In this document: piece after piece, positions 23,025 through 27,601 of the stretch
Layout of the letters: every line of letters begins with the position of its first letter
Position numbering within the stretch: position 1 is the stretch's first letter
Assembly: GCF_000429825.1 (NCBI RefSeq)
Contig: NZ_AUCP01000033.1
Coordinates: forward strand, 1-64,000
Length of the DNA stretch: 64,000 bases
Reading direction: 5' to 3'
DNA from: Cohnella thermotolerans DSM 17683
Lineage (GTDB): Bacteria > Bacillota > Bacilli > Paenibacillales > Paenibacillaceae
The notes under the pieces: model-generated
What the model saw: only the letters and a program-made list of their open reading frames with translations
What the model was told of the DNA's origin: nothing
Databases searched by the model: none
Position numbers and translations under genes: made by a program

Positions 23025-23213
23025 TTAATAGCTTAACGCTTTGTACTGAATGGCGCTCAATAATCCTCTTCTCGTAATTTCGCTACGCAGCATATCGATG
23101 AAGTCCGGTTCCAGCTGGAGACGCTGCGCTTCAACGTAGCTTTCGATCAGATGTTCGTCGTTGAGACATGCGAGTATGGCGTTCATTTTCGCGGAAGATG
23201 TACTCAATCCCAT
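23025..23213 (-). CDS. sda: Sda-like inhibitor of sporulation histidine kinase
   Basis: A 62-residue protein. The core LNDEHLIESYVEAQRLQLEP followed by DFIDMLRSEITRRGL matches Sda, the helical-hairpin checkpoint protein (about 46-52 residues) that binds KinA and blocks phosphotransfer when DNA replication is disturbed. The N-terminus is about a dozen residues longer than B. subtilis Sda; an internal Met (MNAILACLND) could be the real start. The ATG at 23213 has GAGGTG nine bases upstream. It lies on the minus strand next to the com locus and is AT-richer than the flanking genome. Confidence 0.8.
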   Translation of the reverse strand: MGLSTSSAKMNAILACLNDEHLIESYVEAQRLQLEPDFIDMLRSEITRRGLLSAIQYKALSY

Positions 23214-23370
23214 TGCTTTTTGCACCTCATATGCATATTGCTGTGAAGTTTAACGGTTTTGTTAATCTATATGCTTAATGTTAAACATTTCCTGATAAAA
23301 AGTCAGCGCAACTTTTATGCATCTTCACGCAAATCGTTTTGCATTCTTGTGTAAGGGGGGAATTAGAGAG

Positions 23371-23404
23371 AAAAAAAGAGAATCGCATGGGCGCGAATCT
23401 CTTT
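23371..23404 (-). terminator. Intrinsic terminator of the ComX candidate gene (minus strand)
   Basis: Stem AAAGAGA/TCTCTTT with an inner TCGC/GCGA pairing and one mismatch; on the minus strand it is followed by seven T. It lies 20 bases beyond the stop codon at 23425. Confidence 0.75.
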
Positions 23405-23424: not shown

Positions 23425-23637
23425 CTATGACCAAAACTTCATTGTCGGTTCGTTATCTTGCTGTTCTTTTAATTTAACAAAAGAAATATGAATGGCATCT
23501 AATTCTTTAGGAGTCAAGGGCAACGAATTCAAGTAGACTGTGGTGCCTTGGATAGTCCTTACAGCTTCATCGGAACCCAAAACTTTAATTCTTTTAACTT
23601 CGTTTCTTAAAGCAGGCGAACGCTGAACAAGTGTCAT
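23425..23637 (-). CDS. Candidate ComX pheromone precursor (70 aa)
   Basis: A 70-residue protein, divergent from comP. Its C-terminus reads DNEPTMKFWS, with a tryptophan one residue from the end. In B. subtilis ComX (55 residues) the isoprenylated Trp sits near the end in DPITRQWGD. The acidic-Pro pair and the distance from Pro to Trp are the same here. Length, the upstream leader-like region (LPLTPKELDAIHISF), and location beside comP in an AT-rich patch all fit. A comQ gene is nearby at 26678. The ATG at 23637 follows GGGGGG; a TATAAT box lies at 23674-23679 on this strand. Identification is inference from these features. Confidence 0.6.
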   Translation of the reverse strand: MTLVQRSPALRNEVKRIKVLGSDEAVRTIQGTTVYLNSLPLTPKELDAIHISFVKLKEQQDNEPTMKFWS

Positions 23638-23699
23638 ACCATAACGCCCCCCAAACAAAAGATATTATTCTAAATTATAACACAAATTATTAGAAAGAT

Positions 23700-26030
23700 G
23701 TGAAGGAAATGTCTAAGAATCGTGCATTTTTGTATATTCTAATTTGTTTTGTTCTTTTACAGCTATGGTTTATTCATATAATGCTTTCTTATCCGTTCAG
23801 CGGATTCGACATTAACGAGAAAAATGGGAAATGGATGATTTCAAATATTGATCACAGAAGTAGGGCTTCAGAATTAGGGCTGCATGTCGGAGATATCGTC
23901 TTAGAAATTGACGGGCGAGATGTCGACCGCCATTCTTCAGTAATTAGATGGGGTACTGTCGACCAAGCGAAAAAAATTGTCATTGTCAGAAACGGAAATT
24001 TATTTGAGGTTGATACTTCCCAAATTGCTCCAATTGATGCGTGGGATGTTTCTTATTTGGCACGCGAATTGATATGTCTTTTTGTAGCAATAGCACTCTA
24101 CAAGTATATGAATCGTTCGAAATCCGCACGTTATCTAGCGTCCGTCTTTTTTACTATATCCCTAACTTTTATGAGTCTTGGAGCTTCTATAAGAGGGGAT
24201 GCTTTAGGTAAGATTGTTATCGGAATAAGCATAATGCTGATTCCAGTTACTATGCTTCATTTTTTGATCATTTTTTTCAAAGAAAAAGGAAGTATTACAA
24301 TTAATTCTAGAATTGTTCGTGTTCTATACTCTTTTATTTTCATAAGTTTATTTCTTCACTTATCATTTTTTATGAATTGGAAGCATACTCAAGAAATCCA
24401 TCGTTTTTTTTCTAATGCTGAACTCCTGTTTTTTACGCTTGGAGTTTGTTTAAATCTTGGCTTCCTTTTTTATATATTTTTCAAGTTCAGAAAAGCAAGT
24501 CCTTATACTTCAGCGATGATCAAAACGATCGGGATTTCCTTTGTGATTTCAACTAGCCCAGTGATATGCCTCTCATTTGTGCCTTTCGTCTTGTATGGTT
24601 ACGAATGGATTGATTCCCTTAACACAAGCTGGATCGTCCTATTCTTCCCGTTGTCCTTTACCTACCTGCTCGCAGCCAAGAAAATCTATGACATCGACCT
24701 GGTTGTCCGCCGATTTATACTGACTACGGTCCTGTCTATCGTCCCAAGCGTCGCCATCGTGGGCATGATTTCCGCATTATTTTCTGCCAGAGCTAAAACC
24801 GAACACCTCGTTATGGCGTTTATATTTACAGTAGTTTTACTTTCCGTCACTCTGTATTCGCTGGAATATTTAACGACGCGATTGGAGCGAGTCGTTTTTC
24901 CGAGAAGACATTATTTGCAGACCTCGCTCAAGAAAATCGCCAAAAAACTGGGCACCATCTCCAGCATGCGCGAGCTTAAGGATCTCATTCTGGCCGACAT
25001 TGTTGACATTTTGCAGGTATCCGGGGGAGCGCTCGTCTTTCGATACAGGGACTATACCGAGGTTTTGAGCGAAGGAGAGATTTCCGTCGCGGAATTGGAG
25101 CAGGCGCTTGAAGGAGAAGGGCTCGACCCGTCCGTTTACTCCTGCTTTGAAATTACGCGCAACGAAGAGTATGTAAGCTTTCTCGTTCTGACGCCAAAGA
25201 AGTCGAACACGCTGCTCGGGTCCGAGGAGACGCAATGGTTGAACCTGATCATCTCCTATCTATCCGTCTGCATGGAGAACTTGTATCTCATCCGCAAGAT
25301 GACGATGAAGGTCGAGCAGCTCGCCATGCAAATTCCGAACGAGACCGAAGCCGGGGAGCTTGTCTGGCTCCGAAAGCTCATGTTCGACCTCCAGGAGAAG
25401 GAACGGATTCGGATCGCGACGGATTTGCACGACACGACGATGCAAGATTTGTTTTTCCTGAAGAGAAAGTTGTCATCCCTGTTCGAGCGTCTCCCGATCC
25501 ATCAAGAAAATCCGCAGCAATGGGAGGGGCTTCTGGAATATATCGATGTGATCAATATGAACTTGCGGCAAAGCTGCTTCGAGCTTCACCCCTATCTCTT
25601 GCAAGAGGCCGGTCTGGTCGGTACGGTTGAGAAATTAATGGATTTGGAAAAGACGAGCGCGCCGTTCCACATCGAGTTTGAAGCTATAGGCAAGGAGGAG
25701 ATCGAGCGGATCGACATGGAAACGAAACGTCATTTGTTCCGGGTCGTGCAGGAGCTTCTCAACAATGCCAAGAAACACTCCAAAGCTTCTCGCGTCAAGT
25801 TTATCCTGAAGGCAGGCAAATCGAACGTACGGCTTTACTACGAGGACGACGGTGTCGGCTTTGATACCGATCGGACAGTGACAAGAGAAATCGGCGGCTC
25901 TCGGATCGGTATGGAGCAGATGAAGAGCCGGATTCTGTCCCTGGACGGCCATTTCGAGCTCGCCTCGGCCGAAGGAAGCGGCATGAAGTTCTCGGCGACA
26001 CTCCCCATGAAGGAAGGACGAACAGCATGA
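23700..26030 (+). CDS. comP: ComP-like membrane sensor histidine kinase
   Basis: A 776-residue kinase. A first transmembrane helix (residues 10-30) is followed by a PDZ-like extracytoplasmic region (ASELGLHVGDIVLEIDGRDV), about seven further helices to residue 400, then a cytoplasmic part with the HisKA_3 box DLHDTTMQDLFFLKRKL (His577) and an HATPase domain (ELLNNAKKHSKAS, DDGVGFD). It resembles ComP, which senses ComX. The first 900 or so bases are AT-rich and poor in CG, while the kinase half matches the genome. Start is uncertain: GTG 23700 or ATG 23709. The stop overlaps comA by ATGA. Confidence 0.85.
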   Translation: MKEMSKNRAFLYILICFVLLQLWFIHIMLSYPFSGFDINEKNGKWMISNIDHRSRASELGLHVGDIVLEIDGRDVDRHSSVIRWGTVDQAKKIVIVRNGNLFEVDTSQIAPIDAWDVSYLARELICLFVAIALYKYMNRSKSARYLASVFFTISLTFMSLGASIRGDALGKIVIGISIMLIPVTMLHFLIIFFKEKGSITINSRIVRVLYSFIFISLFLHLSFFMNWKHTQEIHRFFSNAELLFFTLGVCLNLGFLFYIFFKFRKASPYTSAMIKTIGISFVISTSPVICLSFVPFVLYGYEWIDSLNTSWIVLFFPLSFTYLLAAKKIYDIDLVVRRFILTTVLSIVPSVAIVGMISALFSARAKTEHLVMAFIFTVVLLSVTLYSLEYLTTRLERVVFPRRHYLQTSLKKIAKKLGTISSMRELKDLILADIVDILQVSGGALVFRYRDYTEVLSEGEISVAELEQALEGEGLDPSVYSCFEITRNEEYVSFLVLTPKKSNTLLGSEETQWLNLIISYLSVCMENLYLIRKMTMKVEQLAMQIPNETEAGELVWLRKLMFDLQEKERIRIATDLHDTTMQDLFFLKRKLSSLFERLPIHQENPQQWEGLLEYIDVINMNLRQSCFELHPYLLQEAGLVGTVEKLMDLEKTSAPFHIEFEAIGKEEIERIDMETKRHLFRVVQELLNNAKKHSKASRVKFILKAGKSNVRLYYEDDGVGFDTDRTVTREIGGSRIGMEQMKSRILSLDGHFELASAEGSGMKFSATLPMKEGRTA

Positions 26031-26665
26031 AACGACCGGTAAAGGCGATTGTGGTGGACGATCATCCGCTTATGGCGCAGGCAACGATGCAATTGCTGAA
26101 CGAGATGGATAGCGTCGAGGTGGCCGGAGTAGCGCATACCGGCAAGGAAGCGCTGGAATTGGCGGAGACGGTGCGGCCGGATCTGCTCATGTTGGATTAT
26201 CAGTTGCCCGACCAGCCGGGAACGCAAGTCGCCGAGAAGATGAAGGCGAAATGTCCGGGCATCCACGTCGTCATTTTCACAGGAGTCGACGTCTCCGATT
26301 TGCTGCCCTTCGTCCTGTCGCAGCAGATCAGCGCGGTCGTCTCCAAAGGAGCGAGAGAAACGACGATCAAGCACACGGTGGCCTGCATACTGGACGGTCA
26401 TATCGTGCTGCCGAATTCGCTTATCCAGCAATTGAAGCTGCCTTCCAAATACGCGACGGAAATCGCGTTGACGGAGGAAGAGTGCGAGCTCATGGCGATG
26501 ATCGTCAAGGGAGAGACCTATGAACGGATTGCCGAGCAAATGTTTATAAGCAAGCGATCGGTCGACAACTACTTGCGCCGCATCTACGAGAAGCTCGGCG
26601 TACAGACCAGAGTTCAAGCGATCGAGAGGTTCGTGCAGAGCAGACAATATGCGGAGATGAATTAG
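26027..26665 (+). CDS. comA: ComA-like response regulator (NarL/LuxR family)
   Basis: A 212-residue regulator. The receiver domain has the acidic pair VVDDHP (Asp11, Asp12), phospho-acceptor Asp57 in LLMLDYQLP and Lys in AVVSKGA; the C-terminal LuxR-type helix-turn-helix reads ALTEEECELMAMIVKGETYE and ISKRSVDNYLRRIYEKLGV. It overlaps comP by four bases, so the two form a two-component pair. In Bacillus ComA drives competence, surfactin and other quorum-regulated genes when ComX accumulates. Targets here are unknown. Confidence 0.9.
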   Translation: MKRPVKAIVVDDHPLMAQATMQLLNEMDSVEVAGVAHTGKEALELAETVRPDLLMLDYQLPDQPGTQVAEKMKAKCPGIHVVIFTGVDVSDLLPFVLSQQISAVVSKGARETTIKHTVACILDGHIVLPNSLIQQLKLPSKYATEIALTEEECELMAMIVKGETYERIAEQMFISKRSVDNYLRRIYEKLGVQTRVQAIERFVQSRQYAEMN

Positions 26666-26677
26666 GAGGCAACGGAT

Positions 26678-27601
26678 TTGAAGACGGGCTTAAGCGTCGA
26701 AAACGAAATTCATCGCATGCTGGATCAATACGTCCCGGAGGAAAACTTGCATCGTCTGATTCAAACGTTTATCGAAGACAAGAAGAACGAAAATTCGGCC
26801 TGGGCCGGTCTGACGCGGTGCGTCCATTACATGCTGGGGGGAACGTCACCCGCGATCGAGAGGGCTGCCGCGATCACGGAACTGTTCATTCTGCTGCTGG
26901 ATATCGTCGACGATTTGCAAGATAGGGATCAGCCGGACAAGCCGTGGATGAAGAGCGATTCGGCTGTTACGTTGAATGCGCTTCTGGCCCTGTCCGCCGC
27001 CGTCATCGGAGAGATCGGCCGCCTCGTTCCGGGCTCCCTGGCTGCCGAAGTCGGCGCCTTGCTGGCTTGCTCTGTCCACGGACAGCAGACGGATATCGCG
27101 GGCGACGTGCGGACGGAGGAAGACTATTTGGAGATGGTGGAACGCAAATCGGGCTCGCTGCTTCAATTCGCCTGCCTGATGGGCTATTCGCTCGTGGACG
27201 GCGTGACGGAACAAACCCGCAATGCCCTCAACGAGCTGGCCTGCTGCGCCGGGATCGTCGCCCAAATCGAGAACGATATGAACGACGTGCTTCGGTTCGA
27301 TCTGAAGAACGACCTTTTGCAAAAGAAACGCACCCTGCCCATTCTATACGTGCTGGAAGACGCCGCGGAGGAATGCCCCGAGCTTGCAGGGTATTACGAT
27401 GGGAATCTGAACCTGGAAGATATCCTGCCGCGAAAAATGGACATATTGGCCTACATCCGGGATTCCGGCTGCCTCGAATATTGCCGGGTCATTCAGACGC
27501 TGTACGTCGACAAAGCCCGGGAGCTTTATCGCACGTTGCCGGCGAAGGAGCCATGGGGAGACCGGTTTATGGAGCAGGCTTTCCCCCAGGGGTTCGACTG
27601 A
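26678..27601 (+). CDS. comQ: ComQ-like polyprenyl transferase (pheromone-modifying enzyme)
   Basis: A 307-residue isoprenyl-synthase-fold protein. The first aspartate-rich motif is DIVDDLQDRD near residue 72; the second region reads QIENDMNDVLRFDLKNDLL with KKRTLPILYVL, the ComQ pattern. ComQ attaches an isoprenoid to the conserved Trp of ComX. In Bacillus comQ precedes comX and comP; here it follows comA and has genome-like base composition. The start is a TTG with AGGAGG eight bases upstream. Its 3' end lies only ten bases from the convergent AraC gene. An ordinary short-chain prenyl synthase is a less likely alternative given the com context. Confidence 0.8.
   Translation: MKTGLSVENEIHRMLDQYVPEENLHRLIQTFIEDKKNENSAWAGLTRCVHYMLGGTSPAIERAAAITELFILLLDIVDDLQDRDQPDKPWMKSDSAVTLNALLALSAAVIGEIGRLVPGSLAAEVGALLACSVHGQQTDIAGDVRTEEDYLEMVERKSGSLLQFACLMGYSLVDGVTEQTRNALNELACCAGIVAQIENDMNDVLRFDLKNDLLQKKRTLPILYVLEDAAEECPELAGYYDGNLNLEDILPRKMDILAYIRDSGCLEYCRVIQTLYVDKARELYRTLPAKEPWGDRFMEQAFPQGFD

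Follow-up and report, generated by a model that had tools for sequence, protein, structure and literature searches.

Can a small open reading frame that lies back to back with a histidine kinase gene encode a peptide pheromone of the ComX type? The question is raised by a locus of Cohnella thermotolerans DSM 17683, within a stretch of 64,000 nucleotides that was analysed as a whole and is called the window here. Comparison of sequences indicates that the frame at 23425-23637 is very probably the precursor of a ComX-type pheromone, in a ComQXPA quorum-sensing locus that has been rearranged. Prenylation, cleavage, export, sensing and target genes are inferred by analogy with the family. The features of the locus are as follows.

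23025..23225, minus strand: Sda-family gene (sporulation inhibitor; PF08970, E 2.8e-14), downstream of comX
23373..23396, minus strand: intrinsic-terminator-like hairpin (23396-23383) with a T-rich tail, from a terminator scan
23425..23637, minus strand: comX-like pheromone precursor gene, 70 aa, from the open frame and comparison with relatives
23647..23652, minus strand: G-rich putative ribosome-binding site (GGGGGG) located 9 bases upstream of the ATG
23674..23682, minus strand: candidate extended -10 element TGTTATAAT, 37-45 bases upstream of the ATG
23700..26030, plus strand: comP, membrane histidine kinase, 776 codons, from the open frame, Pfam and a model
26027..26665, plus strand: comA, response regulator with receiver and GerE/LuxR DNA-binding domain, from the open frame and Pfam
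26678..27601, plus strand: comQ, candidate isoprenyl-synthase-like Trp prenyltransferase, from Pfam, alignment and a model

The translated frame starts with ATG at 23637 and has the sequence MTLVQRSPALRNEVKRIKVLGSDEAVRTIQGTTVYLNSLPLTPKELDAIHISFVKLKEQQDNEPTMKFWS. It ends in EPTMKFWS before the stop codon, with the tryptophan as penultimate residue and a single residue after it. This is the 70-residue minus-strand frame described in the original prediction. Because the open frame also holds an in-frame TTG at 23658, 21 bases upstream of the ATG, the start of the precursor is a choice. The predicted contact with comP is also found: the two genes lie on opposite strands, and the ATG is 62 bases from the start of comP if this is GTG 23700, or 71 bases if it is ATG 23709. 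Finally, comX is inverted and split from comQ as had been proposed, with comQ placed on the plus strand after comA.

Many related bacteria share this arrangement. A ComQ search finds this type of enzyme in 10 of 37 genomes of the genus, the other nine being 51-63% identical to the ComQ of the window. The order comP-comA-comQ is common to all ten loci. Directly before comP, each of the ten (the window and nine others) has a divergent ORF, which is 58-70 aa long with likely starts. The ten tails are FWS, YWL, NWL, FWS, GWY, YWN, YWS, YWV, NWS and YWM, while identity between the window precursor and its genus relatives is only 21-32%.

When named genomes were scanned with the ComQ alignment, 47 loci emerged, 42 in Paenibacillaceae (Cohnella, Paenibacillus and Chengkuizengella) and 5 in Bacillaceae or Caryophanaceae. 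A divergent small ORF is present at 39 of the 42, counting a short 38-aa form (L075). The three remaining loci are L051, which has no comP or comA, L058, which begins inside comP, and L077, where the 5' end of comP is lost. L077 (3700-4500) keeps comA and comQ but has apparently lost comX along with the 5' part of comP. In two of the 39 (L064 and L074), no comA was detected within the 15 kb taken per locus, and comP runs straight into comQ. The comP gene appears interrupted in L047, L052 and L069. One further locus, L153, has a ComQ of the divergent-type clade, yet no precursor was found in its 12.9 kb.

Thirty-nine precursor rows make up an alignment, called A3. The near-identical relatives of L065 (L072 and L073), the 38-aa form and a third, 39-aa fragment of L066 were left out of it. 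As a profile, A3 matches 14 of 394 genomes of the family at E<=0.01. These are all 10 ComQ-bearing genomes of the genus, three from other genera that also carry ComQ (G019, G045 and G062) and G234. The last match (E 0.009) is taken as false, since it lies inside a 187-codon frame in a genome without this ComQ. No match appears in ComQ-less genomes of the genus, among the 20 of 27 that were listed; with that coverage, the precursor and this ComQ are found only together within the genus. Cohnella ginsengisoli (G221) has two precursor copies with equal scores on two contigs (C6:5200 and C8:38080). An ORF search with the single window sequence in 295 family genomes returned weak matches, the best after self at E 0.0084, and many of them lie inside long unrelated frames. 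Two weak matches, in G196 (E 0.405) and G240 (E 0.0987), are true orthologues beside comP.

Evidence that the frame is translated can be provided by its pattern of substitution. The precursor has a dN/dS of 0.05-0.28 in 13 of 15 pairs of relatives, although dS exceeds 1 and is near saturation in most pairs. Of the other two pairs, one has a saturated dS and the distant pair of the window and L044 gives 0.44. Judged by these ratios, the ORF evolves as a protein and is under purifying selection between relatives. Because so many related bacteria share the arrangement, the frame at 23425-23637 on the minus strand is taken to be a real gene, one that probably makes a prenylated pheromone.

The gene is accompanied by putative expression signals. 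The G-rich ribosome site that had been predicted is the run of G at 23647-23652. A -10 box had been predicted as well, and an extended -10 element TGTTATAAT is indeed present. Of 39 aligned members, 29 have the pattern TGnTAnnnT somewhere from -70 to -16; in 200 mononucleotide shuffles the mean was 4.2 such members and the maximum 11. A sigma-70 consensus scan of the region, however, did not have the element at 23674-23682 among the sites it listed; it gave one other promoter-like site, with 2.4 expected by chance. The gene was also said to have its own terminator. A hairpin and a run of T do follow the stop codon, but the count of such sites in the region is near chance (1 found, 0.6 expected). 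With both counts so close to chance, the consensus scan for promoters and terminators is by itself no evidence.

What do the family members have in common? In their leader, an L, a V or I and a K are conserved close to the N-terminus, followed in the alignment by an L-(S/T)-x-x-E-x-x-A segment. In A3, neither the tryptophan nor one Glu of the LS-x-x-E segment varies; the residues flanking the tryptophan are among the most variable. The tryptophan occupies the penultimate position in 37 of the 39 aligned sequences; among 1864 background ORFs 50-90 aa long, 22 have a Trp there.

Since the Trp had helped to select members in the first place, profiles were also made without the C-terminal part. 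The forward profile was built from the 30 non-Cohnella rows and run against the 1353 ORFs of 30-150 aa that the whole window and 8 Cohnella loci contain. It gave 7 matches at E<0.01, all of them divergent ORFs and all with a penultimate Trp. The window ORF is its sole match in the 64 kb (E 7.7e-6). Two of nine Cohnella rows, L046 and L047, were missed at E<0.01. The reverse test, on 3827 ORFs of 33 loci, gave 26 matches, 25 with a penultimate and one with a terminal Trp; at E<0.01 it missed L059, L067, L068, L082 (E 0.09-0.36), L071, L075 and L084.

The original prediction started from a different cue, an acidic residue before Pro and a Pro-to-Trp spacing equal to those of Bacillus subtilis ComX, whose tail reportedly reads DPITRQWGD. 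The likeness is literally true for the window, but it is no trait of the family: 9 of 39 members have [DE]P within their final 12 residues, and the exact spacing from Pro to the first tail Trp occurs in the window member alone of the 39. The Glu-Pro cue is incidental, a weak argument that pointed the right way by chance.

The relation to known ComX proteins is remote. Against Pfam, the window ORF matches no family over the cut-off and has one chance-level match (E 0.19); against NCBIfam, no family is matched. The model of the ComX family, PF05952, has four matches in the whole genome (E 0.58-5.25), none over its cut-off. Because this model also falls short of its cut-off on Bacillus subtilis itself, its silence here means little. 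In the class it matches 25 of 299 genomes, with 27 matches. Of these, 23 were combined with four ComX from the named scan to form a second alignment, A4; L112-L115 were left out as being under the cut-off, and two other matches under the cut-off were kept.

Comparison of A3 with A4 by hhalign gives a probability of 89.5% and a score of 30.0, where the best of 60 column shuffles scores 12.8. When the Trp region is removed the score is 23.7, and the best of 60 shuffles 12.0. The segment common to both alignments is roughly L-S-x-x-E-x-x-A-(I/L)-x-x-x-F. A penultimate Trp is found in 19 of 23 PF05952-type ComX too. The profile search proposed along with the original prediction thus has two outcomes: PF05952 itself stays below its cut-off, but homology appears when profile is compared with profile. 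A search of the PDB with the precursor profile returned nothing credible (best E 0.067). ComX precursors are described as 52-73 aa long with a Trp near the C-terminus (Dogsa et al. 2014, PMC4008528), and the window ORF, at 70 aa with a penultimate Trp, falls within this description. The claim that this is a ComX candidate is therefore upheld by position, size, leader and penultimate Trp, all conserved beside comP-comA-comQ, and by the remote homology to PF05952. A clearer comX beside another comQ, which would have spoken against it, was sought genome-wide and is absent. The genome-wide searches found one ComQ and one member of the precursor family, and the idea of a further ComX or ComQ outside this locus is rejected.

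The candidate modifying enzyme carries the Pfam label polyprenyl_synt. The Asp residues of its first Asp-rich motif, DDLQD, are kept in 34 of 34 aligned sequences. Ordinary synthases have Asp-Asp in the second Asp-rich motif. At the presumed place of this motif, judged from the motifs of known synthases, all 34 ComQ have Asn-Asp (N199 D200), including four from Bacillaceae and Caryophanaceae. The predicted structure (pLDDT 93.8) has an isoprenyl-synthase fold, and its structural matches include many synthases and the prenyltransferase Ord1. Sequence relatives with solved structures are isoprenyl or terpene synthases, and again include Ord1. By its fold alone, ComQ could not be told from an ordinary polyprenyl synthase. 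The window protein combines the fold with a kept first motif and an altered second one, the latter located with the motif placement just given. Such a combination is how ComQ-type enzymes are recognised in PMC10853753. Ord1, according to the review PMC13290415, farnesylates free tryptophan.

The candidate receptor, ComP, consists of an N-terminal helix, a PDZ-like domain, a multi-helix membrane domain, HisKA_3 and HATPase_c. The last two domains are over the Pfam cut-off. The PDZ match (residues 35-79, E 2.4e-4) is just under it. In the model (pLDDT 83.1), strands that extend to about residue 102 lie between helix 3-27 and helix 111-133. Foldseek finds nothing for the ComP model at E<=0.001, and mostly returns meaningless receptor-like membrane bundles; CtpA and DegS are weak matches (E about 0.01-0.04, 82-96 columns), with the range on the model not specified. 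In Bacillus amyloliquefaciens ComP, an outer PDZ domain is reported between the first two membrane helices (PMC9620489). The window protein follows the same plan of outer PDZ, membrane domain, HisKA_3 and HATPase_c, with the PDZ just below its Pfam cut-off.

In two loci the divergent pair has been duplicated. L066 (560-6922) and L078 (1032-6965) each have two tandem divergent precursor-receptor pairs before one comA and one comQ. The paired precursors differ in their C-terminal tails, and L066 has a third precursor-like fragment. In two Chengkuizengella loci (L081 and L082), three comP-like kinases follow one another, the first truncated where the locus ends, but only one precursor ORF was found.

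A second gene often accompanies the locus. An Sda gene lies within 2.5 kb in 25 of 37 divergent-type loci, against 0 of 25 comparison loci. The loci that bear it include the window and all 8 named Cohnella (L044-L050 and L052), among others. In relatives within the genus, Sda forms the C-terminal end of a 119-133 aa protein. By its distribution the Sda gene is a neighbour linked to the divergent type of locus, and any role in the system is only putative. It is conceivable, though on balance doubtful, that Cohnella, Paenibacillus and Chengkuizengella have a separate ComX lineage, in which a divergent, duplicable pheromone-receptor cassette would use a shared ComQ and be tied through Sda to sporulation and not to competence.

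The results established here concern the gene and its conservation, purifying selection in relatives, linkage of the gene to comP, comA and comQ, remote homology to ComX, and the architecture of enzyme and receptor. A mechanism can be proposed around them. Expression of the comX-like gene would be driven by its own extended -10 promoter, and the leader, with its two short conserved segments, would present the C-terminus to ComQ, which would attach a prenyl group to the penultimate Trp. A few C-terminal residues around this Trp would be cleaved off and then exported. The mature peptide would bind the outer N-terminal part of ComP, made up of the PDZ-like domain and membrane helices, and peptide-bound ComP would phosphorylate ComA.

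Other explanations have been considered. Might the frame be a chance ORF upstream of comP that resembles ComX fortuitously? It is short and belongs to no database family, and the promoter and terminator counts are near chance. The position and penultimate Trp shared by 10 of 10 genus loci, the purifying selection and the E of 7.7e-6 for a profile free of the C-terminus lead us to reject this idea, whose probability is negligible. It is also very improbable that comQ encodes an ordinary polyprenyl diphosphate synthase, with the small protein acting unmodified as a peptide signal or regulator of the ComP-like kinase. The Pfam label and the solved isoprenyl and terpene synthase relatives, even with Ord1 among them, would fit such an enzyme, but its N199 D200, kept in 34 of 34 ComQ, departs from the Asp-Asp familiar from ordinary synthases; moreover, ComQ and the precursor are found only together in the genus, and in the otherwise variable tail the Trp alone is fixed.

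A tail of this kind, short and variable but for one constant Trp, would be just as suitable for any other prenylated peptide. The product could accordingly be a prenylated RiPP that does not signal, for example an antimicrobial, made by a PalQ-like enzyme while the kinase senses something else, as perhaps in Pal. PalX and PalQ come from a Paenibacillus cluster that also encodes a kinase, PalX being the precursor and PalQ the Trp prenyltransferase (PMC10853753). PalQ is reported to prefer strongly a Trp at the very C-terminus (PMC13290415), whereas the Trp here is penultimate in 37 of 39 members, much as in 19 of 23 PF05952-type ComX. A comA gene is also present at the locus, and the precursor has profile homology to ComX. 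In L066 and L078 the precursor and receptor have been duplicated together, as is expected of a signal and its receptor. A non-signalling peptide is thus unlikely, less so than the two readings above, and a ComX-type pheromone remains the preferred one.

If this reading holds, Cohnella and part of Paenibacillus gain a candidate pheromone of a prenylated peptide class that has been characterised mainly in Bacillus, and precursor, enzyme and receptor become available in dozens of sequence variants. The precursor is invisible to the models of both libraries searched (Pfam and NCBIfam), but the A3 alignment detects it. Loci such as L066 and L078, with two precursor-receptor pairs and one ComQ, make the origin and switching of pherotypes directly testable.

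How might the arrangement have arisen? Among 20 sampled weaker ComQ relatives of Paenibacillaceae, 16 have a PF05952-type profile match, which in 15 sits on the same strand as comQ and comP, between the two, and in L138 precedes a second comP. Loci of ordinary comQ-comX-comP order with a PF05952-like ComX (15 of the 20 sampled) are found in the series L134-L149, and L138 and L139 have two comP genes. In L150-L152, an ORF that ends with a Trp occupies the ordinary place and has an N-terminus resembling the divergent precursors (MWSPQLKE...DYWA or near); these loci are a possible intermediate. The last of the 20 is L153, the locus with no precursor found in 12.9 kb.

An 82-row ComQ tree was made without L066, whose ComQ match is 123 aa, and without PF05952 loci where no ComQ was recovered. 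It places all divergent loci together (support 89, unstarred), beside L150-L152 (joint branch 100). A single change of arrangement is enough once the rows without a readable precursor (L051, L058, L077 and L153) are set aside; with all rows, treated as a group label, there are five. Two loci with comX reversed beside comQ, L089 and L111 (comP unverified in L111), fall on another ComQ branch. Because the divergent loci group on the tree and one change can suffice, the simplest history would be a single rearrangement of an ordinary comQ-comX-comP-comA locus, in which comX was inverted and comQ moved behind comA.

Among the titles and openings of abstracts listed in a literature search, from a library that leaves most subscription papers and all preprints outside, there is no report of the divergent arrangement. 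Related cases are known. The PalP-PalX-PalQ cluster of Paenibacillus alvei is alike in its adjoining kinase, precursor and Trp prenyltransferase and in its host family; PalX, however, carries a leader of the nitrile-hydratase type and has its Trp at the C-terminus (PMC10853753), a position that differs from the penultimate Trp of the window precursor. For such a leader the precursor has no Pfam or NCBIfam match at E<=1, a comparison with libraries whose models of that leader are unverified and not with PalX itself. The Pal cluster is given as three genes, comA not being among those named, and PalQ as remote from the ComQ subfamily, in the account of PMC10853753.

A hypothetical comX on the opposite strand is described by Dogsa et al. 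(2014, PMC4008528) for Bacillus cereus strains and Lysinibacillus fusiformis. According to that survey, these ORFs likewise have a Trp near the C-terminus and no appreciable homology to known ComX. They lie between comQ and comP, whereas comQ is downstream of comA here. An ordinary-order locus is attributed to Paenibacillus curdlanolyticus (PMC4008528).

The closest likeness is to the ComQXPA systems of Bacillus subtilis and other Bacillaceae. Four adjacent genes are found in both, in the window and at 10 of 10 genus loci. Both have a precursor within 52-73 aa with a Trp near the C-terminus and a variable tail on a more conserved leader, a ComQ with the first motif kept and the second altered, a membrane ComP with a PDZ-like outer domain, and a ComA. 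They differ in order and strand, as comX here is divergent on the other strand and the remaining genes run comP-comA-comQ in place of comQ-comX-comP-comA. The precursor is also missed by PF05952 and NCBIfam, its leader has a different N-terminal motif, and an Sda-like gene is often beside comX. Because the canonical order and strand and a PF05952 match over the cut-off are lacking, the locus is classed as a variant of ComQXPA and not as a canonical member.
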